A stretch of DNA of 64,000 bases. It comes from an uncultured Bacteroidales bacterium (lineage in GTDB: Bacteria > Bacteroidota > Bacteroidia > Bacteroidales > F082). The translations under genes and the position numbers were made by a program. Shown in pieces: positions 25,872-37,553 of this stretch (within the stretch, counting starts at the first letter, position 1; the number at the start of each line of letters is the position of its first letter). The stretch is from assembly GCA_900318085.1 (NCBI GenBank), contig ONJF01000009.1, forward strand, positions 1-64,000, in the 5' to 3' direction. The notes beneath the pieces are model-generated. The model had not been told where the DNA came from, searched no databases, and saw only the letters and a program-made list of their open reading frames with translations.

Positions 25872-26414
25872 ATGAACGAAAACGAGCTTAATGTCCTGAT
25901 TGGGAAAATGAAAGCTGGCGACAGGGAGTCTTTCAACCAGATTTTCCGTCGCTTTTACCCGCCTTTGACGCGTTTCTGCATCCGTTTTGTCGGTGATACC
26001 GACACGGCTGCTGAAATTGTGCAGGACTTGTTCGTCAAGTTGTGGTCGGGCCGCGAGAAAGTGAATTTTACCACGGGTTTTGAGCCCTATATGTTGCGTG
26101 CGGTACGCAACGCTGCCATCACATTTATTAATAAAGAGCGTTCACATGCCGAGGCCAACGAGCGAGTCTTTTCAGGTGATTCCGACAATAACGATCCCTC
26201 CGAGACCTTGCAGTCCAATAACCTGGAAGCCTCTTATCGTCAAGTGTTGGCAGCGATGCCCGAAAAACGCCGCGAGGTGTTCCTCGCCAGCCGTTTCGAA
26301 GGCTTGAAATACAACGAAATCGCAGAGAAGCTCGGTGTGTCGCAAAAAACCGTCGAGGCGCACATGAGTGCCGCCATCAAGCAATTGCGGGAAGGGCTTA
26401 AAGAGTATCTTTAA
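25872..26414 (+). CDS. ECF RNA polymerase sigma factor (FecI-like, Bacteroidota type)
   Basis: 180 residues. Sigma-2 region: FNQIFRRFYPPLTRFCIRFVGDTDTAAEIVQDLFVKLW (residues 19-57). Sigma-4 region with a helix-turn-helix: YRQVLAAMPEKRREVFLASRFEGLKYNEIAEKLGVSQKTVEAHM (about 120-165). It directs RNA polymerase to a small regulon, usually including its own locus. Genes downstream (FecR-type anti-sigma factor, STN-barrel protein) indicate control by an outer-membrane signal. It is the first gene of a possible six-gene unit ending at 35562. Confidence 0.95.
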   Translation: MNENELNVLIGKMKAGDRESFNQIFRRFYPPLTRFCIRFVGDTDTAAEIVQDLFVKLWSGREKVNFTTGFEPYMLRAVRNAAITFINKERSHAEANERVFSGDSDNNDPSETLQSNNLEASYRQVLAAMPEKRREVFLASRFEGLKYNEIAEKLGVSQKTVEAHMSAAIKQLREGLKEYL

Positions 26415-26488
26415 GTCGGGACGGCCCTTTGGGCATTTGAAATGTCTCAACAGCCACAGGCTCAGCGTCCCTCATTATAAAAGCCAAT

Positions 26489-26508
26489 AAATATTTTTGT
26501 AAATATTT
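26489..26508. repeat. AT-rich hairpin between sigma and fecR genes
   Basis: AAATATTT twice (26489-26496 and 26501-26508), a self-complementary sequence that can pair around TTGT. It lies in the 165-bp gap before the FecR-type gene and may modulate read-through or messenger stability. Confidence 0.4.
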
Positions 26509-26551
26509 TCATTTTTGACTAAGGGTAAAACAAAAGTTGTTAGTCATAAAA

Positions 26552-26593
26552 ATGAATCGACAAGAAATCAACGAACAAAATGAATTCGGTTAA
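26552..26593 (+). CDS. Possible 13-codon upstream ORF overlapping the FecR start
   Basis: ATG 26552 opens MNRQEINEQNEFG and stops at TAA 26591-26593, just past the FecR ATG at 26580 in another frame. The overlap could couple or dampen FecR translation. It may also be chance, since 13 codons is short and no comparison is possible here. Confidence 0.25.
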   Translation: MNRQEINEQNEFG

Positions 26594-27605
26594 CAACAAA
26601 TATGATGCATTAATCACGAGCTACTTCGACGGGCAATGCTCCGCCGAGGAAGCTTTTGAATTGCTTTCATGGGTGGCCGAATCCGAAGACAATCGTTTGT
26701 ATTTCAAGTCGCTAAAGGATGAGCATGAGGTCTGGAGCCTTACTGACTTCGCCATGCCCGAACTTGACGAGGTGGATGTTGAAGCTGCACTTGATGCGGT
26801 CAACGCTAAGATCGATGCCCTTGAGGAGAACGCAGAACCCAATGTGGTTCAGATGCCTTGGCTGCGCCGAAACTATAAATATGTTTCCGGTGTGGCTGCC
26901 GCCCTTGTGGTAGCCTTGTTCATCGGTTTCCTGGTCAAGAATCCGTTTAATTCAACTGTCACCTACGCCTATAACGGTCAAAACGAATCAGCCTATGTCT
27001 TGCCCGATGGCACTTCCATCGATTTCAATAGCGAAGGCGTCATCAGCTATCCCAAGAGTTTTGCCAAAGATGTGCGTTCCGCCAAATTCGAAGGCACTGC
27101 CTATTTCGATGTGGCCAAAGATGAAACGCGCCCCTTCGTGCTCCATTGCGGCAATATGGATGTGGAAGTGTTGGGCACCACCTTCCTGCTCAATGCCGAC
27201 AAGGAAGCCGAACGCTATACCGTCGACCTCTATACGGGCAAGGTGATGATGACCGCTTTTGACGAAAAGGGCAACACGCTTTCGCAGGTGGAAGTCAATC
27301 CTGGCGAGCGCGGCGTGTGGAATGCCACGGAGAGCGAACTGAAGATGATGACATATTCCGAAGTGAAAGAGGATGAGCTGCAAACCAACCATGTCCTCGT
27401 GTTCGACAATGAGCAACTGTCGAAGATCGTTGAGGCTTTGGAATACATCTACAAGGTTGAAATCAACCTTAGCGATGCCTGCGCTTCCAAGAAACTCACC
27501 GCTCGTTTCTCCGATGACGAATCCATCGACGATGTACTCGAAACCATCGCTTTGGTGTCGGAAGTGACGGTCACCAAAGAGGGCGATATCTATCAGATTC
27601 GCTGA
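26580..27605 (+). CDS. FecR-family anti-sigma factor with DUF4974
   Basis: 341 residues. The N-terminal 90 residues form the cytoplasmic sigma-binding part (YFDGQCSAEEAFELLSWV). One membrane helix follows (about 97-120, VSGVAAALVVALFIGFLV). The periplasmic FecR domain holds LPDGTSIDFNSEGVISYPKSF and VEVLGTTFLLNA. The C-terminal DUF4974 domain (from about 270, EQLSKIVEALEYIYKVEINL) resembles an STN fold. Family members hold the sigma factor at the membrane until an outer membrane receptor signals. The expected partner is the STN protein encoded next. Confidence 0.93.
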   Translation: MNSVNNKYDALITSYFDGQCSAEEAFELLSWVAESEDNRLYFKSLKDEHEVWSLTDFAMPELDEVDVEAALDAVNAKIDALEENAEPNVVQMPWLRRNYKYVSGVAAALVVALFIGFLVKNPFNSTVTYAYNGQNESAYVLPDGTSIDFNSEGVISYPKSFAKDVRSAKFEGTAYFDVAKDETRPFVLHCGNMDVEVLGTTFLLNADKEAERYTVDLYTGKVMMTAFDEKGNTLSQVEVNPGERGVWNATESELKMMTYSEVKEDELQTNHVLVFDNEQLSKIVEALEYIYKVEINLSDACASKKLTARFSDDESIDDVLETIALVSEVTVTKEGDIYQIR

Positions 27606-27700
27606 TTCCATTCCATTTTACCAAGTCTTTTTTTGAGTTAAATGAGATAACTCTCGTTTTTTTGTCGTATTTTAGCGGCCTATTTTGAATTATTTTGGAT

Positions 27701-29026
27701 ATGGAATACCCTATTATTCATATAGCCGTTGATAGACAGAAAGATAAGCGAAATAGCCTATGGCTACTGCCTATTATGGCCTTGCTTGTCTTTTGTTTTG
27801 CCCTCCCAAAATCGTCTCAAGCACAATCGTTTAATCCGCTGATTTCGTTCTCGGTGGAGTCATGTACCTTGGATAAGGCTTTGGAAAAACTCTTCGCCGA
27901 CTACGAATTGAATGTGGCTTTCAGCAAAGCGGAACTGAGCAAGATACGCATTGAGAGCTATTCATGTTCCTACAAATCCGTCGAGGAGGTACTGTCGGAC
28001 CTGCTGAAAGGGACCGACTACGGCTTTAAGAAAATCGGCAAGCAATATGTAATCAAAAAGAACCAGCAACTGGTCAATGTGCCAGAGGCCACCATAACAC
28101 AACCCGCCGAACCGCATGTCGAGGTTGTCAAACCTAAAACGGACAGCGTTGTCCCAAAAGCGGGAGAGGTCATCCGTATTTTCGATACCGTTCAGGTGAT
28201 CAAAACCGTGATGCGATACGACACCGTCGTCAAGATTCAACATGAAGTGAAGACCGACACAGTGTATACTGTGAAATACCAAGGGTGGCATATTCCTTGG
28301 CCCAAGTTCCGTGACAACGGTTGGTTCATCACGCCCTCTGTGACTATGAGCTCGGCCAGTTTCAAACATGAAGGCGGTATGCCTGAACCAGAGAATGGAT
28401 CGATTGATGTGACGCCCAGTTTTGCCTATGGTGTTGGCCTCGATGGCGGCTACAAGCACAACCGCCTCAGCGTTGGCATGAACCTGTCGTACCGTTCTGT
28501 ACGCTATCGTTTTTTGCTTGAACAGACGGTATTCGATGGGGATTATTATGTCAACGACACCTTGGATACCTATTACACGGTACATCCGGCAGGCGATACT
28601 ACCTACCAATATATCTTGGATTCGACTTATGTTCCGCTGACCACGACCCAATATGCCTATCGCGATGTCAACAGGCTTGATTATTTGAGTGTCGGTCTTT
28701 TCGCCTCTTTTGATTTTGTCAAAATGGAGCATTTCCGAGCTTTCGCCAAAGCGGGTGTCTCTGTGGATTTCTTGGTTGGTTATGCTGGATCGCTCAATGC
28801 CACATCGGTGCCATTCCATGCACCAATCGCCAAAGAGCAGGTGGAACCCACCCGGATTTCTTACTATGGCGGCCTGGGTGTGGCCTTCAAAGTGGCTCAT
28901 CGCATCGAGTTGGTGCCCGAGGTCCATTACCGCCTGACCAACGGCTCGCTGTATCGTGCCGACTTCCCGTTTGACATGAAGATGCGGATGTGGAACTTCC
29001 GTTTGGGCTTGACTTATTATTTCTAA
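27701..29026 (+). CDS. STN-domain outer membrane beta-barrel protein
   Basis: 441 residues from ATG 27701. A TTG two codons upstream is a weaker start. A signal peptide with a long charged n-region ends at SSQA before QSFNP. STN domain: residues about 47-115 (FSVESCTLDKALEKLFADYELNVAFSKAEL). A Thr/Val/Lys-rich linker follows to about 185. The rest is beta-rich (VGLDGGYKHNRLSVGMNLSYRSVRYRF) and ends in WNFRLGLTYYF, the terminal aromatic of outer membrane barrels. STN domains normally sit on TonB-dependent receptors or secretins; a small barrel of about 250 residues is unusual. Signal transfer to the neighbouring FecR is inferred. Confidence 0.85.
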   Translation: MEYPIIHIAVDRQKDKRNSLWLLPIMALLVFCFALPKSSQAQSFNPLISFSVESCTLDKALEKLFADYELNVAFSKAELSKIRIESYSCSYKSVEEVLSDLLKGTDYGFKKIGKQYVIKKNQQLVNVPEATITQPAEPHVEVVKPKTDSVVPKAGEVIRIFDTVQVIKTVMRYDTVVKIQHEVKTDTVYTVKYQGWHIPWPKFRDNGWFITPSVTMSSASFKHEGGMPEPENGSIDVTPSFAYGVGLDGGYKHNRLSVGMNLSYRSVRYRFLLEQTVFDGDYYVNDTLDTYYTVHPAGDTTYQYILDSTYVPLTTTQYAYRDVNRLDYLSVGLFASFDFVKMEHFRAFAKAGVSVDFLVGYAGSLNATSVPFHAPIAKEQVEPTRISYYGGLGVAFKVAHRIELVPEVHYRLTNGSLYRADFPFDMKMRMWNFRLGLTYYF

Positions 29027-29029
29027 ACC

Positions 29030-32023
29030 ATGAGACTGTTCCAATACATACGGAATCTCCTGTTGATGCTTCTGCTAGCGTCTTGTGCGCTTATGGAGGC
29101 GCAGCACTATGTGCCCGTCAATGGCGACATCGATACGCTGATGGTCTTGCCTAGATTGGGTGGCGATTCGGTGTATTGGGTGAATGAGTCGCTGACGATT
29201 CATAACGGTGGCACATTGCGCGTGGAAGGCGGAGTGAGGATGTATTTTGGGCAGTCGACCTACCTGCGTGTCGAGGGTGGCAACCTGATGCTTGACGGTC
29301 AACCCAACGACTCGATTTATCTGCTCTGTTACGAGTTCTCACACGATTGGGCTGGCGTACAGCTCAAGAATATCGCTGAAGATGACACGGTACGCATGGC
29401 CTATGTGGAGGTGGTGGGCGCCCTGACCGCGTTGAATGCCTCCACGAGCAACAATGTAAGCATCCGCCATTGCGCTTTCAACAACTATTATGCAGGCAAG
29501 GGTATGGAACTGATTGACTGTCATAACTTCCTGGTCGATAGTTGCTCCTTCTTCCAATGCGTGTCGGGCATCGAATTGAAAGCGCGTGCCGGCGACAGCG
29601 AAGATAATGTCTTCTCTCATAATATCTTTGATCAAGGACAAATCAACATCGAGATTTCCAATGTAGCCTATGGCTACAAATGCAACCGCAACCATATCAC
29701 CGCCAATTGTTTCCAAGGTGCTGCCACCGCCATTAGTTTTGAGACGGTAGGTGGCGTGTCGGACCGCGAAGCCACCAACTATATCGAAGACAACCTCATC
29801 TCTAGTGAATTGCCTGAAGGTGGGTCTGGCTATTCGTCTTATGGCATCAAGGCGGCTATGGATACGGTTGTGGTCCGTAACAATGTGTTTTGGAGCAACG
29901 ACGAGGCCGTCAGGATGATGCGGGTGTGCCATCTCGTTATTGAGAACAACACTTTCTATGACAATGAATTGACCATTACCAACTTGTTGGCGGCGGGTTC
30001 TGTGACCTTCGTGGGTAACACCATTAGCGAGGCGAAGAAAAGGATTGTGAACTTTCCTTCAGCGTTGTCTAGAATGAACGGCAACAATTTCTTGCATTAC
30101 AAGAAAGACGCCATCCTCTTCGCCAATGTCTCGACTGACGACATCGACTTGCGTGGCAATTATTGGGATGCCGAGTCGACAGCCGAAATCGAATCCGTCA
30201 TCCTTGATAAGCATGACACGCCTTCGTTAGGTGAGATTATCTATGAAAACCAGTTGACGGAATGCGACACCACGGTTCCTATCGCGCCACCGTTTAAGGT
30301 TAAGAAGCAGTTTGTGAATAGCCGTTGGCTCATCTCTTGGGACGAGAACCTTGAGCGCGATGTCGACCATTATGTGCTGTTTTATGGTGATTTCAATTAT
30401 TATAAGTTCGCCAATCACATCGATGGTATCGCGGAGAACTCCTATGTGCTTACGCCTCAACAATCAGAGAACATTGCCGTCATGGCCTGCGACCGTGCTT
30501 ACAATCCTGATGTGTATGCCTCGGCCGGACAAAGTGCCTATGCCTTCGCTTCCTATTATCCCTATGCGGGTGCCGATAGATACATGTGCGCCCCTCAAGC
30601 AGGTTATACCATCACTGACGCCACCATTCCCTATACTTATAGCGGTTTTGTGTGGCAGACTTCAGGGACGGGCATGTTCTCCGATTCTTTGTCATTGAGA
30701 CCCATATATTATCCTTCTGAAGCCGATTTCGAGGCTGGCGAGGTGACCTTGACTTTGCGTGTTAGCGCGAACGGGACTTTGAAGACTGATGCCATGCAGT
30801 TGCAGCTCTATAAAGCTTTAAGTGTCTTTGCTGGCGATGATGGTTTCAGTGGTTTGGATCGGCCTTTGCCACTTGACCAAGCCGAAGCCTACAACTACGA
30901 CTCGCTTCGTTGGCATTCAATGGGCGATGGCCGTTTCGACGACTCGCTTTCGCTGCATCCAGTCTATTATCCAGGCGCCTTTGACAAGGAACAAGGGTTC
31001 GTTGAATTGATGCTTGAGGCCTGGTCGTTCTGCGGTTATGCTTCCGATGTGGTTCGCTTCGAGCTATTCAAGGACTATGCCTTGGAGGGGAGAACATGGA
31101 GCAACGGAGTACCTTGCCCCAACACCCAGGTGGTTGCTGCAGCCTTGAGTAATGACAATCCTTTTGTGTCGGGCTTCTATCGTACGGTCTCCGATAGTCT
31201 GGGATTCTATAGGTTCGATGCCTTGCTTCCTGATACCTATACTTTGTACGCTTTTCCCGATACCTTGGATGCCACTTCCAGTGGTTGCTATTATCTCGGT
31301 GACCTCCAGTGGAACGAATCGAATATGGTCGAAGTGGATGGCGATGTCTATGATGTGGATATCGCATTGCCTGCGAAGGAACAGGGATTCAATACGGGCA
31401 ATGGAAGTATCAGCGGTGTGTTCGACTATCCAGAATCCGATTTCCGGGCGCGCGATTTCTATTGCCAGCCTTGGCTGCGCGAGGGCGAGGATGCCGACTA
31501 TTGCACCGACGGCCTTTCAAATGTCGGTGTCCTCTTGCTTAACTCGACCAAACAACGCATAGTGGGTTTCGCCTTGACAAGAAATGACGGAGGCTTCCGC
31601 TTTAATAACTTGCCCTTTGGCACTTATCATCTGATGGCCGACCTACCACGTTATGGTCGTGGCATGTGTGAGGAAATCACGCTTTCAGTGGAACGGCCAT
31701 CGGTAACAGACTTGCACCTCTTTGTCAGTGAGGAAGGCAGGGTGGATATGCGACGCTCTGTCGATGTTGATTCACCTTCGGATTTGTTGGTGTATCCCAA
31801 TCCTGCCGAGGAAAGGGTTTCTGTCGGTGGATTGAAGATTAATGAAGAGTATAAGGTTTGTGTCTTGAATGGCTTGGGCATGATGGTCCTTCCTGAAACG
31901 ACGGTGAAAACTGATTTGTTGGGAGAGATTTCATTGCCAGTGAATGAGCTTCGTGCAGGTCTTTATTTCATACAAGTGAAAGGTCACTCGACCTTCGTAA
32001 CTACAAAATTTGTGAAACGATGA
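29030..32023 (+). CDS. T9SS cargo protein with parallel beta-helix
   Basis: 997 residues, beginning 3 bp after the STN-barrel stop. The N-terminus is a signal peptide ending at MEA before QHY; LLASCALM also resembles a lipobox. Residues 60-390 read as a right-handed parallel beta-helix with short N-rich turns (VRNNVFWSNDEAVRM, IENNTFYDNELTIT). An FN3-like unit, two Ig-like repeats sharing SLSLxPxYYPxxxD, two carboxypeptidase-regulatory-like units (SDSLGFYRFDALLPDTYTL; NDGGFRFNNLPFGTYHL), and a type A T9SS tail (LLVYPNPAEERV...GLYFIQV) follow. Surface-exposed. Carbohydrate binding or adhesion is a guess. The stop overlaps the next start (ATGA). Confidence 0.88.
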   Translation: MRLFQYIRNLLLMLLLASCALMEAQHYVPVNGDIDTLMVLPRLGGDSVYWVNESLTIHNGGTLRVEGGVRMYFGQSTYLRVEGGNLMLDGQPNDSIYLLCYEFSHDWAGVQLKNIAEDDTVRMAYVEVVGALTALNASTSNNVSIRHCAFNNYYAGKGMELIDCHNFLVDSCSFFQCVSGIELKARAGDSEDNVFSHNIFDQGQINIEISNVAYGYKCNRNHITANCFQGAATAISFETVGGVSDREATNYIEDNLISSELPEGGSGYSSYGIKAAMDTVVVRNNVFWSNDEAVRMMRVCHLVIENNTFYDNELTITNLLAAGSVTFVGNTISEAKKRIVNFPSALSRMNGNNFLHYKKDAILFANVSTDDIDLRGNYWDAESTAEIESVILDKHDTPSLGEIIYENQLTECDTTVPIAPPFKVKKQFVNSRWLISWDENLERDVDHYVLFYGDFNYYKFANHIDGIAENSYVLTPQQSENIAVMACDRAYNPDVYASAGQSAYAFASYYPYAGADRYMCAPQAGYTITDATIPYTYSGFVWQTSGTGMFSDSLSLRPIYYPSEADFEAGEVTLTLRVSANGTLKTDAMQLQLYKALSVFAGDDGFSGLDRPLPLDQAEAYNYDSLRWHSMGDGRFDDSLSLHPVYYPGAFDKEQGFVELMLEAWSFCGYASDVVRFELFKDYALEGRTWSNGVPCPNTQVVAAALSNDNPFVSGFYRTVSDSLGFYRFDALLPDTYTLYAFPDTLDATSSGCYYLGDLQWNESNMVEVDGDVYDVDIALPAKEQGFNTGNGSISGVFDYPESDFRARDFYCQPWLREGEDADYCTDGLSNVGVLLLNSTKQRIVGFALTRNDGGFRFNNLPFGTYHLMADLPRYGRGMCEEITLSVERPSVTDLHLFVSEEGRVDMRRSVDVDSPSDLLVYPNPAEERVSVGGLKINEEYKVCVLNGLGMMVLPETTVKTDLLGEISLPVNELRAGLYFIQVKGHSTFVTTKFVKR

Positions 32024-34977
32024 AAGGGCAGGCTATGAGAAAGATGATGAGGATGATGGCCGTTCTTGCCTTTCTGCTGATGGGGGTGAGATTTGCCATG
32101 GGCCAAGTCTTGGTTTATGGCGAAGTGGACGAACAAGATTGGCAAACGCCAATAGAGAATGCCATTGTGACTTTCTCTGGTGTTGATGCCATAGGTGATA
32201 CGGTGGTTTATCATCTTGCTACCGACTCCCTTGGCTATTTTTCCGACAGCATCAATGCTGGTATCTATCGGGTATGGGCTTCAGCCGATGGTTATCAGAC
32301 GGAATATCAGATGGATTCCTTGGAAGTCGAGGATGGGCAGTATTTCTCCGGATTGTATTTTGTTCTGTATGAGATCTATCACCCTGTTCGTTATGTGGCA
32401 GCACGGCAGTATATCGATGATCTGGTTCGCATCAGTTGGTCAATGAACGACCCTTTGCTGGTGGAAGACTTTGAGTCGGGTAGCTTCAGCCGTTTTCCTT
32501 GGAACAACAATATGAGTGATAATCCTTGGACTATTGATTCCCTACATGCCTACGAAGGCAATTATTGCATGAAATCGACTTGCGAGGGCGTGGAAAACGG
32601 TATGTCTCAAATTGAGGTCTCTGTTTATGTGCCCTTGGAAGGAAAGATGAGTTTCTATAGCAAGATCTCATCCGAGAGTCCTTGGGACATGGGGCGATTC
32701 TATCTTGATGGCGTCAAGAAGATGGAGTGTTCGGGCGAGGAGGAATGGACAGAGCACCAAATCGATATCACCGTGGGCGAGCATGTGTTCCGTTGGGATT
32801 ATGTCAAGGATGCAAGTACCGATCTGGGCGAAGATTGCTTCTATGTGGACTGCATCCGCTTCTTCCTCGAGGATAGTGCAAAGCTGACGCGTTCTTTCCA
32901 GTATTATGATCTATTCCGTAGCCGCTTTGAAGAGGAACCTGTGATGATGGCTTCGCATCTTACCGACACTGTGTTTATGGACATGAACTGGGGTAGTCTG
33001 CCTTGGGGACAATACCGTTGGGGTGTGAGCGCCTATTATGAGGGCAACCGAGGCAATTCTGATACCATTTGGTCAGCTTATCTCGACAAGGACATGACCA
33101 CAACGCTTGAAATCCTAGGCTCGACCAATGTCGGTTTGCCGCCTGCGGGAGCTTTGGTGACGCTCACTTCACACAATGGGCAAGGTCACGACTATCAAGC
33201 AAGCTTGGATGCCAACGGTCATATCCTCATGTCCAATGTCTACCGTGAAGAATACGATCTCCGTGTGCATCTTGACGGTTTTTGGGACTATGTCTCCGAT
33301 TCTGCACTCTCGGTTTTTGAACCTGCGCAAGTTGAAATCGAGTTGTTTGAGGCAACGAATGGCGTCGATAGTTTGTATGTCTCCTCTACAGGTTGGGCTA
33401 TCTGGTCAGTCGAGAATGCGCAAAATCGTGATTTGCAGTATTTTGAAATCATGGTGAACGGAGAGGTGGTCGGTACAACTACTGACTTTGAATATCAGTT
33501 GGATGTCACCTCCTTGGCAGAGGGTGACACCTGTATGGTTCAGGTGCGGCCTGTTTATTTTTCAGCATCTTGTGAATGGAAGTCGTGTATTTGGGTATAT
33601 CGGCCATGTTCTGATTTCGCGGGGCCCACGGCCTTGACATGGTTGTTGCATGGCGAAGCGCTGCAACTCACCTGGGAGTATCCCGAAGGTGACTTTGTGG
33701 GCGCCATGTTGATGCGCGATGGGGATTTCCTCGCTATTACCGATGCGAACACCTTCGTGGACGAGACTGTTCAGTTGCATGGAGAAGTGGAGTATTGTCT
33801 GCGACTCATCTATGATGGCCCGATGGACGGCACCTATTATTCCATGTCATGCGAGGTGTGCGCTACGGCCTCGTTCCCTGCCTATTGTGACCCGCCGGCG
33901 AAACTGGATGGAACGGTCTATTATGAAGAAGAGAATGACCATGGTGCTTTGGTTTCTTGGGGTGAACGCCCCGAGCCGGTCAACCAATGGCTGTATTTCG
34001 ATGACGGGGTTTTTAAGCGCTCGTTGGGTGGCGAAGAGCCTCGTATCTTCTGGGCCATCCGCTTCGAAGCTGAAGACTTGGCAGAATATGTAGGTAACTC
34101 GTTGAAAAAGGTATCACTCTACGATGCCGGTGCTGGCACCTATCAGTTGTGGATCTATGTGGGTGGCGATACGGCACCGCGCACCTTGGTCCGCTCCCAA
34201 AACATGTCATTGACCAATGCACAGACATGGCATGAGGAAGTCATCAGCCCGGCTTATGAAATCCCAGAAAACGAGCCGATTTGGATTGTGGTGGGCCAGC
34301 AAGGTCTTGCCCGACCAGCCGCCGCCTGCCAGGATATGGGCGATGCCAACGGGCGTTGGGTGTCGTTGGATGGCGAGACTTGGACCGATATGCACACCTT
34401 CAATATGCATTATACCTGGATGCTGCGTGCTTTCGTCACCAACCAATCAGGTCGTTGGGAAGCCATCGCCAAGGATGGCTACATCTTACAACAATACAAC
34501 CTGTATCGTTCGTTTGACAATGCGGATTACCAACTGGCAGCTTCGATACCTGCCGTTGACGGTCAACTGTATTATGAATATCGCGATAACCTTGCCGAGG
34601 AAAGTCACCCGGATGTCTATTACCGTCTGACTGCTTTTTATCAAACGGACGACGGCGAGACCTGTGAGTCGGACTTTGCCGCCTCTTTGAACGACCCTGA
34701 ACAAAACTATGTGGCCATTGATCTCACCTCGACCGACGAATACCAAGCGCTTGATTTCAAGCTCTATCCTAATCCCACCAACGGGCTCGTTACCATCGAA
34801 TTAGAGGAATTACAAAAAGTGATGGTTTACAATGCCTTGGGACAGGTTTTGATCAGCAAAGAGGCTGACGGTAATTCTTTGCAACTCGATTTGTCGGGCT
34901 TTGAAGGCGGTTTGTACTGGGTGAAAATCATATCTCAAAACAGAATAGCGGTTAAACCTTTAGTCATTTCAAAATAA
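32020..34977 (+). CDS. T9SS cargo protein with MAM/anchor-J-like domain
   Basis: 985 residues starting in the overlapping ATGA at 32020. A signal peptide with a basic start ends near FAMG before QVLVYG. Residues 25-120 are a carboxypeptidase-regulatory-like unit (DSLGYFSDSINAGIYRV). Next comes a MAM/choice-of-anchor-J-like region (EDFESGSFSRFPW ... YVDCIRFF, about 140-280). FN3-like modules follow, with a second jelly-roll-type segment near 660-800 (FWAIRFEAEDLAEYVG). The T9SS tail begins near LDFKLYPNPTNGLVTIE. Expected on the cell surface beside the upstream protein. No catalytic motif is evident. Confidence 0.88.
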   Translation: MKGQAMRKMMRMMAVLAFLLMGVRFAMGQVLVYGEVDEQDWQTPIENAIVTFSGVDAIGDTVVYHLATDSLGYFSDSINAGIYRVWASADGYQTEYQMDSLEVEDGQYFSGLYFVLYEIYHPVRYVAARQYIDDLVRISWSMNDPLLVEDFESGSFSRFPWNNNMSDNPWTIDSLHAYEGNYCMKSTCEGVENGMSQIEVSVYVPLEGKMSFYSKISSESPWDMGRFYLDGVKKMECSGEEEWTEHQIDITVGEHVFRWDYVKDASTDLGEDCFYVDCIRFFLEDSAKLTRSFQYYDLFRSRFEEEPVMMASHLTDTVFMDMNWGSLPWGQYRWGVSAYYEGNRGNSDTIWSAYLDKDMTTTLEILGSTNVGLPPAGALVTLTSHNGQGHDYQASLDANGHILMSNVYREEYDLRVHLDGFWDYVSDSALSVFEPAQVEIELFEATNGVDSLYVSSTGWAIWSVENAQNRDLQYFEIMVNGEVVGTTTDFEYQLDVTSLAEGDTCMVQVRPVYFSASCEWKSCIWVYRPCSDFAGPTALTWLLHGEALQLTWEYPEGDFVGAMLMRDGDFLAITDANTFVDETVQLHGEVEYCLRLIYDGPMDGTYYSMSCEVCATASFPAYCDPPAKLDGTVYYEEENDHGALVSWGERPEPVNQWLYFDDGVFKRSLGGEEPRIFWAIRFEAEDLAEYVGNSLKKVSLYDAGAGTYQLWIYVGGDTAPRTLVRSQNMSLTNAQTWHEEVISPAYEIPENEPIWIVVGQQGLARPAAACQDMGDANGRWVSLDGETWTDMHTFNMHYTWMLRAFVTNQSGRWEAIAKDGYILQQYNLYRSFDNADYQLAASIPAVDGQLYYEYRDNLAEESHPDVYYRLTAFYQTDDGETCESDFAASLNDPEQNYVAIDLTSTDEYQALDFKLYPNPTNGLVTIELEELQKVMVYNALGQVLISKEADGNSLQLDLSGFEGGLYWVKIISQNRIAVKPLVISK

Positions 34978-34980
34978 GCC

Positions 34981-35562
34981 ATGAAAAAAGGTATTATAGG
35001 CATAGTATTGTTATTATCAATACTTGGATTGAACGGAAAAGCAGTTGCTCAATCAAGGCTATCACTTTGTGCCAGGTTTGATGTGACTCTGCAATTGAAA
35101 AGCTATTACAATTCCTTGGATAGTATTCTCCAGACTCGTTTAGGAGACGATTTTCTTTTCCGATTCACAACCATGCCATCATTTGATCCTGAATATGCAT
35201 TACAAATAGAATCCGTTGAAGAGCAGTATTTCTTAAAGGTAATCTCGTTTGACAAAAACCTATGGTATGCAAAAGACGCTGCGGGCATCAATATAGATGA
35301 ATGCTTCGTTGAGTTGGAAAAGGAGCTTGCGGAACAAGTGTTGTATTTAAGCAAACAATTCATTGATAATAAAATAGATAGTGTTTCCGTCGGGAGCGCT
35401 ATTGATGGAGATCTGTATCAATTTGAGATAAACGAAAATGGGGTGATTTCTTGTGGGCAAATTTGGGAACCAGCCCCCGAAAGTCCTTTGGATCATTTTT
35501 GTTTATTATGTGCTCGTCTTAAGGATTGGTGTTTGACTGAAAACAAGTCTAAAAACCAATAA
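34981..35562 (+). CDS. Small secreted protein, last gene of the sigma/FecR locus
   Basis: 193 residues, 3 bp after the previous stop. A signal peptide ends at AVA before QSRLSL. The body mixes helices and strands and holds five Cys (three near the C-terminus). It is AT-richer than its neighbours. No family recognised. The tight spacing suggests it is co-transcribed with the T9SS cargo genes, so a periplasmic accessory or ligand role is possible. Confidence 0.65.
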   Translation: MKKGIIGIVLLLSILGLNGKAVAQSRLSLCARFDVTLQLKSYYNSLDSILQTRLGDDFLFRFTTMPSFDPEYALQIESVEEQYFLKVISFDKNLWYAKDAAGINIDECFVELEKELAEQVLYLSKQFIDNKIDSVSVGSAIDGDLYQFEINENGVISCGQIWEPAPESPLDHFCLLCARLKDWCLTENKSKNQ

Positions 35563-35597
35563 AAAACTGTACCTTTGCGGCCTAAAATCGGCCTACG

Positions 35598-37553
35598 ATG
35601 ATTTCAATCCAAAACCTAAGCATGCACTTCACCGGTGAGGACCTCTTCACCGATATTTCCTTCTTGATTCGCGAGAAGGACCGCATCGGCTTGGTGGGCA
35701 AAAACGGCGCGGGCAAGACCACGCTGTTGAAGCTTATCTGCGGATTGGAACAACCTTCTAAAGGAGAGGTTGTTATCCCTCAAGGCGTTACCATTGGTTA
35801 TCTGCCCCAGGAAAAGAATGTGAACAGTGCAAAGACCGTTTTGGATGAGGCGCTTTCCGCTTTCGATGAATATCACCAACTGGAATGTGACTTGGAAAAG
35901 ATGCAACAGGAACTGGCCGAACGCACAGATTACGAAAGTCCTCAATATGAGAAACTCATCGTCAGGATGAACAACTTGAACGACCGTTTGGCTTTGCTTG
36001 GTGGCGACTCCATCGAAGGTGAGGCGGAAAGGATTTTGGTCGGACTGGGGTTCGGTCACGAAGATATGCAGCGCCCTATGCGCGAGTTCAGCAATGGCTG
36101 GCAGATGCGTGTGGAGCTGGCCAAGATCCTGCTGAAAAAGCCCAACTTGCTTCTTCTTGACGAGCCGACCAACCATCTTGACATCGAGTCCATCCAATGG
36201 CTCGAAGGCTTCTTGAAGGCCTATTATGGGGCCATCCTGATGGTCTCTCACGACCGCGCTTTCTTGGACAACATCACCATCCGTACGGTGGAGATCAGCA
36301 ATGGGAAGATCTATGATTACAAGGTGCCGTATTCCGACTATGTCAGCCTGCGCGAGGAGCGCGTCGACATGCAGCGCTCGGCTTACGAGAACCAGCAGCG
36401 CGAGATCAAGAACATCGAGGCGTTCATCGAGCGTTTTCGCTATAAAGCCACCAAGGCCAAGCAGGTGCAGAGTCGTGTTAAGCTCCTTGAGAAGATGGAT
36501 GAGATTGTGGTGGATGACATCGACAGTACGGCTATACACTTTAAGTTTCCGCCTGCACCACATTCCGGCAAGGTCACACTGGAGTTGAACCATGTCGGCA
36601 AGTCTTACGGTGACCAAGTCATCCTCAAAGACATCAACCTGTTGATTCCGAGAGGGGAGAAGATTGCCTTTGTGGGACGCAACGGCGAAGGTAAGTCGAC
36701 TTTGTCTAAAATCATTTGTGGCGTACTCGATCACGAGGGCGAAGTGAAACTCGGTCACGAGGTCAAGATTGGGTATTATGCCCAGAACCAGCAGGACATG
36801 CTCGACATGAACAAGACTGTCTTTGAGACCTTGGACGATGTGGCCGTAGGCGACATGCGCCTGAAGGTAAAGGCTTTGCTTGGCTCGTTCCTCTTCCGTG
36901 GCGATGATATCGATAAGAAGGTGAAAGTGCTTTCGGGTGGAGAGAAAGCCCGTCTGTCTTTAGCAAAGATGCTCCTTTTCCCGACCAACTTGTTGGTCCT
37001 CGACGAGCCGACCAACCACTTGGACATGCTCTCGAAAGACATCCTGAAGAATGCCTTGATTCAATATGATGGCACTTTGATTATCGTTTCCCACGATCGA
37101 GACTTTCTGCAAGGGTTGACTAACAAGGTCTATGAGTTTCGCAAGCCCAACATCAAGGAGTATATTGGCGACATCTACGATTTCTTGGAACAGAAAAACC
37201 TCAACCACTTGAAGGAATTGGAAATCGCTGCCAAATCACAGCCTAAAGTTGCAGCCTTTGAGCCTGTTTCGCAAAACAAGGTCAATTATGAGCGGAAGAA
37301 GCAGATTGATGCCAAGTTGCGTAAGGTGGACAAGGAAATCCAGCGTCTAGAGGAAGCCATCGGCAAGTTGGAAGTCGAATTGGCGGAGCAAGATGCCATC
37401 ATGTCCCATCCTGACCAGCATCCCGAAATCAAGATTGACAACGACTGGTATTGGGCCTATGGCCAGAAGAAAGAGCAACTCCAAGCCTTGATGGATGATT
37501 GGGGAGAGAAGCAAGTGGAGCGCGAAGAGGTGATGTCGGAATACGAAAAATAA
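35598..37553 (+). CDS. ABC-F family ATPase
   Basis: 651 residues with two ABC cassettes and no membrane segment, the ABC-F layout. Walker A motifs are GKNGAGKTTLLK (34-45) and GRNGEGKSTLSK (near 360); LLLDEPTNHLD and LVLDEPTNHLD are the Walker B motifs; FSNGWQMRVELA and LSGGEKARLSLA are the signatures. The linker between cassettes is charged and helical. A C-terminal coiled coil (KQIDAKLRKVDKEIQRLEE) is also present, as in Uup-like proteins. ABC-F proteins act on the ribosome in translation or antibiotic protection; which applies here is not visible. A TACCTTTG box at 35570-35577 may be the -7 element. Confidence 0.93.
   Translation: MISIQNLSMHFTGEDLFTDISFLIREKDRIGLVGKNGAGKTTLLKLICGLEQPSKGEVVIPQGVTIGYLPQEKNVNSAKTVLDEALSAFDEYHQLECDLEKMQQELAERTDYESPQYEKLIVRMNNLNDRLALLGGDSIEGEAERILVGLGFGHEDMQRPMREFSNGWQMRVELAKILLKKPNLLLLDEPTNHLDIESIQWLEGFLKAYYGAILMVSHDRAFLDNITIRTVEISNGKIYDYKVPYSDYVSLREERVDMQRSAYENQQREIKNIEAFIERFRYKATKAKQVQSRVKLLEKMDEIVVDDIDSTAIHFKFPPAPHSGKVTLELNHVGKSYGDQVILKDINLLIPRGEKIAFVGRNGEGKSTLSKIICGVLDHEGEVKLGHEVKIGYYAQNQQDMLDMNKTVFETLDDVAVGDMRLKVKALLGSFLFRGDDIDKKVKVLSGGEKARLSLAKMLLFPTNLLVLDEPTNHLDMLSKDILKNALIQYDGTLIIVSHDRDFLQGLTNKVYEFRKPNIKEYIGDIYDFLEQKNLNHLKELEIAAKSQPKVAAFEPVSQNKVNYERKKQIDAKLRKVDKEIQRLEEAIGKLEVELAEQDAIMSHPDQHPEIKIDNDWYWAYGQKKEQLQALMDDWGEKQVEREEVMSEYEK

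Follow-up and report, generated by a model that had tools for sequence, protein, structure and literature searches.

We describe here a locus in the DNA of an uncultured Bacteroidales bacterium (contig ONJF01000009.1 of assembly GCA_900318085.1), of which a stretch of 64,000 nucleotides, called the window below, was analysed. In our judgement this locus is rather likely to encode a sigma/FecR/STN-type system for cell-surface signalling, in which a closed OmpA-like eight-strand barrel, probably capped by cargo1 (the product of the neighbouring gene), serves as the transducer and which controls adhesins secreted by the type IX secretion system (T9SS). Only tentatively do we extend this to a fuller reading, in which the T9SS-delivered cargo on the closed barrel would be the sensor, the STN domain would control FecR and the extracytoplasmic function (ECF) sigma factor, giant T9SS adhesins would be the main output and signalling would be uncoupled from transport. 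The domain make-up, the predicted fold, the conserved gene order, and a motif with its association with FecR-positive genomes and adhesins were computed. The system is real and recurrent; the least secure claims are that the motif is a promoter and, even more so, that cargo1 acts as a sensor.

An earlier reading of the window made from the letters alone (the sequence-only reading) had placed six open reading frames (ORFs) in one direction here, and this was reproduced: all six lie on the forward strand with matching coordinates, and the last four are joined by an ATGA overlap in the middle, with a 3-bp gap on either side. Its gene identities were also borne out by Pfam and NCBIfam matches, with the barrel slightly below the cut-off. 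The gene of an ECF sigma factor of 180 residues (25872..26414; TIGR02985, 158.8 bits, cut-off 126.4) adjoins that of a FecR-type anti-sigma factor of 341 residues (26580..27605), as in signalling of the FecI/FecR/FecA type. The anti-sigma protein matched FecR and, at its C-terminus, FecR_C, this being the sole FecR_C match in the genome. The third gene, which we call stnB (27695..29026, 443 residues), is assigned as an STN-barrel outer-membrane transducer from Pfam matches, conservation and predicted structure; its start is a TTG that may be wrong, with an ATG two codons further on (27701). The STN match reached 28.9 bits (cut-off 28.4) and that to OMP_b-brl_2 26.7 bits (cut-off 27). The next gene encodes cargo1 (29030..32023, 997 residues), with a right-handed beta-helix, carboxypeptidase-regulatory (transthyretin-like) domains and a T9SS type A sorting domain, and is followed by that of cargo2 (32020..34977, 985 residues), with a carboxypeptidase-regulatory domain and a sorting domain of the same type. 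Por_Secre_tail scored 35.5 and 49 bits on cargo1 and cargo2, respectively (cut-off 27), and TIGR04183 was above its cut-off on both, which by their C-terminal sorting domain are T9SS type A cargo.

According to the predicted model, the transducer consists of an STN domain, a disordered tether and a closed OmpA-like barrel. AlphaFold2 placed the STN domain at about residues 47-127, a linker with a predicted local distance difference test (pLDDT) below 50 at about 125-200, and an eight-strand barrel of about 240 residues at about 205-443, with no plug, in agreement with the plug-free barrel of about 250 residues that the sequence-only reading had expected. Structure comparison of the model found the barrel to be OmpA/OprF-like and the STN segment to have an STN fold, superposing with 2.0 Å over 80 residues on chain B of the PupR complex 6ovk, which we take to be PupB, and resembling the PupA, FpvA and FecA domains as well. 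The possibility that the barrel is an ordinary truncated TonB-dependent receptor, singled out beforehand, was rejected on the predicted eight-strand fold, the length of 443 residues and the lack of a Plug family match. FoxA (6i97) and FpvA (2iah) were among the VIA-align rows with a root-mean-square deviation of 22-26 Å over the whole, so only the STN part of those receptors fits; the non-appearance of other families among these rows proves nothing. An OmpA-type eight-strand barrel should leave no space for import, and a trigger should therefore come via the loops from outside; the extracellular loop at about residues 284-314 is among the best-conserved parts of this barrel. Eight-strand barrels have periplasmic ends. 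In the tether (residues 164-189), invariant or nearly invariant D-T pairs recur every 12 residues (164, 176 and 188) across families.

The association of a small-barrel STN protein with FecR and T9SS cargo, proposed from this one locus, holds elsewhere: in the Bacteroidales the gene order sigma-FecR-STN-barrel-cargo1, cargo1 being a beta-helix protein, was found in five families, and the result would thus not be limited to one genus. The profiles for the CTD (T9SS tail, a C-terminal domain), FecR, STN and sigma were derived from these same loci, and genes in the fetched loci were called as the longest ORF with the help of profiles, which left antisense ORFs in some lists. FecR_C is present in 44 of the 99 genomes of the genus, and among 35 genus relatives checked for both, the STN-barrel was found in all 16 FecR-positive ones and in none of the other 19. 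In the five families cargo1 adjoins the barrel as a single gene that is homologous nearly end to end, and 16 genes beside STN-barrels gave nine Por_Secre_tail, 14 CarboxypepD_reg, 10 beta-helix and five RCC1 matches. As controls we used 20 STN-transporter loci and 20 loci with STN proteins of 370-680 residues (L177 being cut by the contig; hereafter L plus a number denotes a locus, G plus a number a genome and f5 one family), scanning the last 130 residues encoded by each of up to three genes that follow on the same strand. Por_Secre_tail matched none of 51 such C-termini in the transporter set (two of 53, from L201, were dropped as genes of a neighbouring system) and none of 29 from 12 of the 20 mid-size loci; the former set gave 13 SusD matches and the latter four DUF2807 matches. 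CTD-labelled ORFs did occur elsewhere in L178, L192, L200, L204 and L207, beyond the next three genes. Chance adjacency to T9SS cargo was rejected in view of the gene order in several families and of both control sets.

The mid-size control loci (L169-L188) have sigma-FecR-STN proteins of about 470-680 residues (in L177 truncated to 373), not long enough for a transporter and spread over many families. Three of them scanned singly had STN and CarbopepD_reg-type domains, one below the cut-off. In f5 (L164-L168) the STN-barrel is followed by a secreted RCC1-propeller protein of 825-844 residues.

We consider it highly improbable that the locus is an ordinary nutrient-signalling system, with the STN-barrel standing beside one of the TonB-dependent receptors of the genome and reporting uptake. 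The genome does have 16 Plug-domain matches, and the beta-helix of cargo1 is similar to polysaccharide-handling proteins, namely phage tailspikes, AlgG and PL6 alginate lyases. However, none of the Plug matches lies on this contig (beyond this, no search for SusC/SusD was made), no STN transporter was seen in the conserved neighbourhood of the loci and the genome holds a single FecR_C.

As cargo1 stays with the barrel in five families, it is the best candidate for the partner of the barrel, and gene order and conserved residues suggest that the system may monitor a T9SS-delivered surface complex, as the sequence-only reading had put forward. Another explanation is that the STN-barrel alone reads the state of the outer membrane or the T9SS, like the one-chain Dma factors, cargo1 being merely a target in the same operon. 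This would agree with the homology of the barrel to those of seven sigma-linked one-chain proteins, an architecture reported for Dma2 in the available part of its description (PMC13088901), and with the occurrence of the mid-size STN proteins beside sigma/FecR without T9SS neighbours. Such autonomous sensing is harder to reconcile with the presence of cargo1, homologous over nearly its whole length, next to the barrel in five families and with the conservation of the barrel surface loop, and we find it somewhat unlikely. In the seven one-chain cases (L111, L112, L113, L121, L124, L081 and L082) the sigma gene adjoins a protein with a short N-terminus, a hydrophobic stretch, a linker and a barrel, the barrel match of L082 being weak.

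With respect to the output, alignment of upstream regions revealed the motif GGGTAAA-N13-GTC directly 5' of fecR, which we infer to be the promoter of this sigma factor. In the window this candidate ECF promoter, AAGGGTAAA-N13-GTC, occupies 26521..26545 on the forward strand, 34 nt 5' of the fecR start. GGGTAA-N13/14-GTC precedes fecR in 27 of 30 genus loci (no fecR was seen in L041 and L042, and the motif was absent in L093); for a looser pattern the corresponding figures are 12 of 19 (other loci) and one of 40 (control loci). The genome itself has just two exact AAGGGTAAA-N13-GTC sites, one before fecR and the other on contig C54, 186 nt 5' of the start of a large adhesin whose ORF leaves the contig after 1,194 residues and in whose available part fn3 and a sub-cut-off CarboxypepD_reg were the only matches. 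Across the 99 genomes of the genus we counted 113 sites in the 44 FecR-positive ones (12 for the reversed pattern) and 17 in the 55 FecR-negative ones (22 reversed); 40 of the 113 are before fecR (39 genomes) and 50 before an adhesin (34 genomes). When 41 sites were read individually, 27 preceded an adhesin homologue, 15 of them at 187-192 nt and four at 356-388 nt, the remainder falling between those distances or having a start codon set too early (five of the 27 matches). Adhesin-domain homologues were present, among the matches listed (E-values per genome), in 59 of the 60 genus genomes searched, and what tracks FecR is therefore the site rather than the gene family. The one full-length adhesin scanned (G021, 3,117 residues) contained Cleaved_Adhesin in three stretches (E 5.9e-62), CarboxypepD_reg and Por_Secre_tail. 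These data support the earlier idea of a sigma factor that drives surface proteins, given a promoter-like motif that stands before both fecR and large T9SS adhesins and is enriched in FecR-positive genomes.

Outside the genus, a second copy of the motif lies between cargo1 and a giant gene in six of the nine loci of other families that have that giant. Three of the four giants readable to their stop are 2,245-2,564 residues long with a CTD (L334, L335 and L337), and in L334 and L337 the giant is followed by an ATP-binding cassette (ABC)-type ATPase gene that by eye is the same as that of the window; G255 has a third copy 5' of a further large ORF. Used as a phmmer query, cargo2 also matched the products of giant genes in L161 (236 bits) and in L080 (64 bits). 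Calling the cargos of 985-997 residues giant, as was done at first, has to be abandoned, as the likely targets elsewhere reach 2,200-3,100 residues.

The motif could stand before adhesins and fecR for some other reason, as a site of another sigma factor, an RNA leader or an operator, with stnB and the cargo genes transcribed from a housekeeping-type promoter. The distances to the adhesin starts (15 of 27 at 187-192 nt, four at 356-388 nt), which imply long leaders, speak for it, and so does the TANNTTAGC-like element that stnB has of its own after a hairpin. We regard this explanation as unlikely, since the motif tracks FecR over 99 genomes although adhesin-domain homologues are nearly everywhere among the matches listed. 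Moreover, in its fixed arrangement GGGTAAA-13-GTC resembles an ECF promoter. A literature search found no published GGGTAA promoter in Bacteroides.

Between fecR and stnB, a hairpin followed by a T run (27640..27659, forward strand) is a weak candidate for a terminator or attenuator. Compared with shuffled sequences that kept base content, not dinucleotide content, it folds in 17 of 19 genus loci (in L040 and L092 no better than shuffled; L045 was misanchored), and L048 has none. The conserved element TTTTTGTCGTANNTTAGCGGCC (27659..27680, forward strand), brought out by the upstream-region alignment as a possible promoter, occurs once exactly in the genome and twice more with three mismatches. 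Two relatives carry inserts between fecR and stnB, of 6.2 kb (L037:3842-10000) and 3.0 kb (L048:3523-6515), and both retain the element 5' of stnB. The L037 insert encodes an LRR_5 (BspA-type) protein of 1,651 residues, in which a T9SS tail matched below the cut-off. Because this element follows the hairpin, an independent promoter for stnB and the cargo genes is possible, and sigma control of these genes by read-through is possible as well. The tie between cargo and sigma genes that the sequence-only reading had drawn thus stands as to co-occurrence elsewhere and is in doubt as to transcription from a shared promoter.

Several observations weigh against our proposal. The predicted template modelling score (pTM) of the STN-barrel model is 0.49. 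Some adjacency to T9SS cargo is expected in a genome with at least 150 T9SS tails (of 193 candidates, 150 were scored), and the RCC1 neighbour in f5, read by eye as T9SS cargo, was rejected as such when its C-terminus gave an hhalign probability of 5% against the CTD. The fourth readable giant (G460, L336) has 1,667 residues and no CTD. As the motif was picked in the regions 5' of fecR, it is tested only by sites elsewhere, and 23 of the 113 sites precede neither fecR nor an adhesin. Its looser forms are not specific: unrelated genes within the window also contain GGGTAA-N13/14-GTC, and seven and five loose sites, some of them of the form TAGGGGTAAA...TTGTC, were counted in the two control sets against about three in shuffled DNA. 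The exact pattern finds no site before fecR in five of the FecR-positive genomes, among them G027 and G060, whose copies of the locus are divergent. Since genomes share descent and some loci are near-duplicates, the counts and the p-values derived for the association overstate independence. Finally, in this genus the hairpin and the conserved element separate stnB from the fecR motif.

Taking these points into account, the preferred system might work as follows. The STN domain of the transducer would rest in the periplasm on an STN-like C-terminal domain of FecR, by analogy with PupB-PupR and FoxA-FoxR, and hold FecR in check or prime it; the STN profile built from the loci also matches the C-terminus of several FecR relatives. 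In Pseudomonas, as the available part of one report has it, the signalling domain of FoxA binds FoxR and shields it from proteolysis until the signal arrives, with a predicted STN-to-STN contact that mirrors the PupB-PupR crystal complex (PMC11637429). Exported by the T9SS, cargo1 would pair with the barrel at the surface, the conserved loop being the probable point of contact, and ligand binding by its beta-helix, or its loss or arrival, could alter the STN-FecR contact. FecR might then be proteolysed and the sigma factor freed, which would transcribe fecR and the large T9SS adhesins from GGGTAAA-N13-GTC promoters; in some families at least, transcription would run on from fecR into stnB and the cargo genes. 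The predicted promoter makes this regulon directly testable.

The sixth gene (34981..35562, 193 residues), whose product had no match in the Pfam and NCBIfam scans, had been counted in the set and is probably an exchangeable cassette rather than part of the system. Its slot (620 bp) and the one in L043 share 99% identity, as against 56-84% for the flank on the cargo2 side and 78-96% for that on the ABC-gene side, per 50-bp bin. This contrast, together with differing or no ORFs in other genomes, led us to reject it as a system component. The cassette (34850-35600), between cargo2 and the ABC-type ATPase gene that begins 35 bp after the small gene, is empty (45-57 bp) in six of 19 relatives compared, and the remaining ones have small ORFs there, either the same or different. 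Cassettes that are nearly identical (98-99% at the DNA level) occur in genomes with far less similar cargo2 flanks, and the exchange extends into the 3' end of cargo2. Upstream, the neighbours are rpmA and rplU (our labels) on the opposite strand. The 3.24-Mb genome (G000) to which the window belongs, as contig C65, is that of a gut bacterium of ruminants; relatives include three Bacteroidales bins from goat, buffalo and yak abomasum, and the RUG in genome record names presumably refers to the rumen.

STN/FecR signalling is known mostly as an accessory to TonB-dependent nutrient transport, with PUMA3 as a published exception. If a small closed-barrel transducer is confirmed, the STN-FecR switch would be a module that can be driven without import, signalling would not be bound to nutrient uptake, FecR systems would be linked to the recently described Dma factors and T9SS adhesins would gain a dedicated switch from the surface to the chromosome. 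Each half has precedents in the accessible literature (Dma, PUMA3, PorA and a flavobacterial ECF-type motif), and our search, covering titles and abstract starts and few subscription papers, found no description of their combination nor of a protein that joins STN to a small barrel and is encoded next to T9SS cargo.

FecI/FecR/FecA, PupR/PupB and FoxR/FoxA, as presented in the available parts of PMC9249621 and PMC11637429, share the ECF sigma factor, the FecR-type anti-sigma factor and an outer-membrane partner with an N-terminal STN domain, whereas here this partner is a predicted eight-strand barrel without a plug instead of a 22-strand transporter, and its neighbours are T9SS cargo instead of uptake genes. 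PUMA3 (VreA/VreI/VreR) of Pseudomonas aeruginosa also has a non-transporter STN partner and regulates secretion systems and the large exoprotein gene tpsA; however, as far as the available text of PMC2729926 goes, VreA is barrel-less and mostly soluble with a TolA/TonB-like domain, in contrast to the predicted barrel and the T9SS route of our locus. In PorA/PorXY-SigP of Porphyromonas gingivalis a surface protein with a T9SS tail likewise acts upstream of an ECF sigma factor, but through a two-component relay, with T9SS component genes as targets and with no FecR or STN in the portion of PMC7712824 consulted. The SM6 promoters of Flavobacterium psychrophilum carry an ECF-type motif with a conserved CGT box before T9SS genes and a sigma/anti-sigma pair, but their targets include T9SS components and the motif, as given in the accessible section of PMC9723704, is unlike GGGTAAA-N13-GTC. 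The Dma anti-sigma factors of Bacteroides thetaiotaomicron have a barrel, a long disordered tether and the anti-sigma function for an ECF sigma factor; they are single chains across both membranes, according to what could be consulted of PMC13088901, whereas here the task is divided between two proteins, FecR and StnB, the outer one with an STN domain. The StnB barrel is homologous to the barrels of the Dma-like fused proteins in the fetched loci, the only ones with which it was compared in this respect. We would tentatively propose, as part of the same reading in which cargo on the barrel is the sensor, that this system is a two-protein counterpart of the one-chain Dma factors in which the exported cargo forms part of the receptor.
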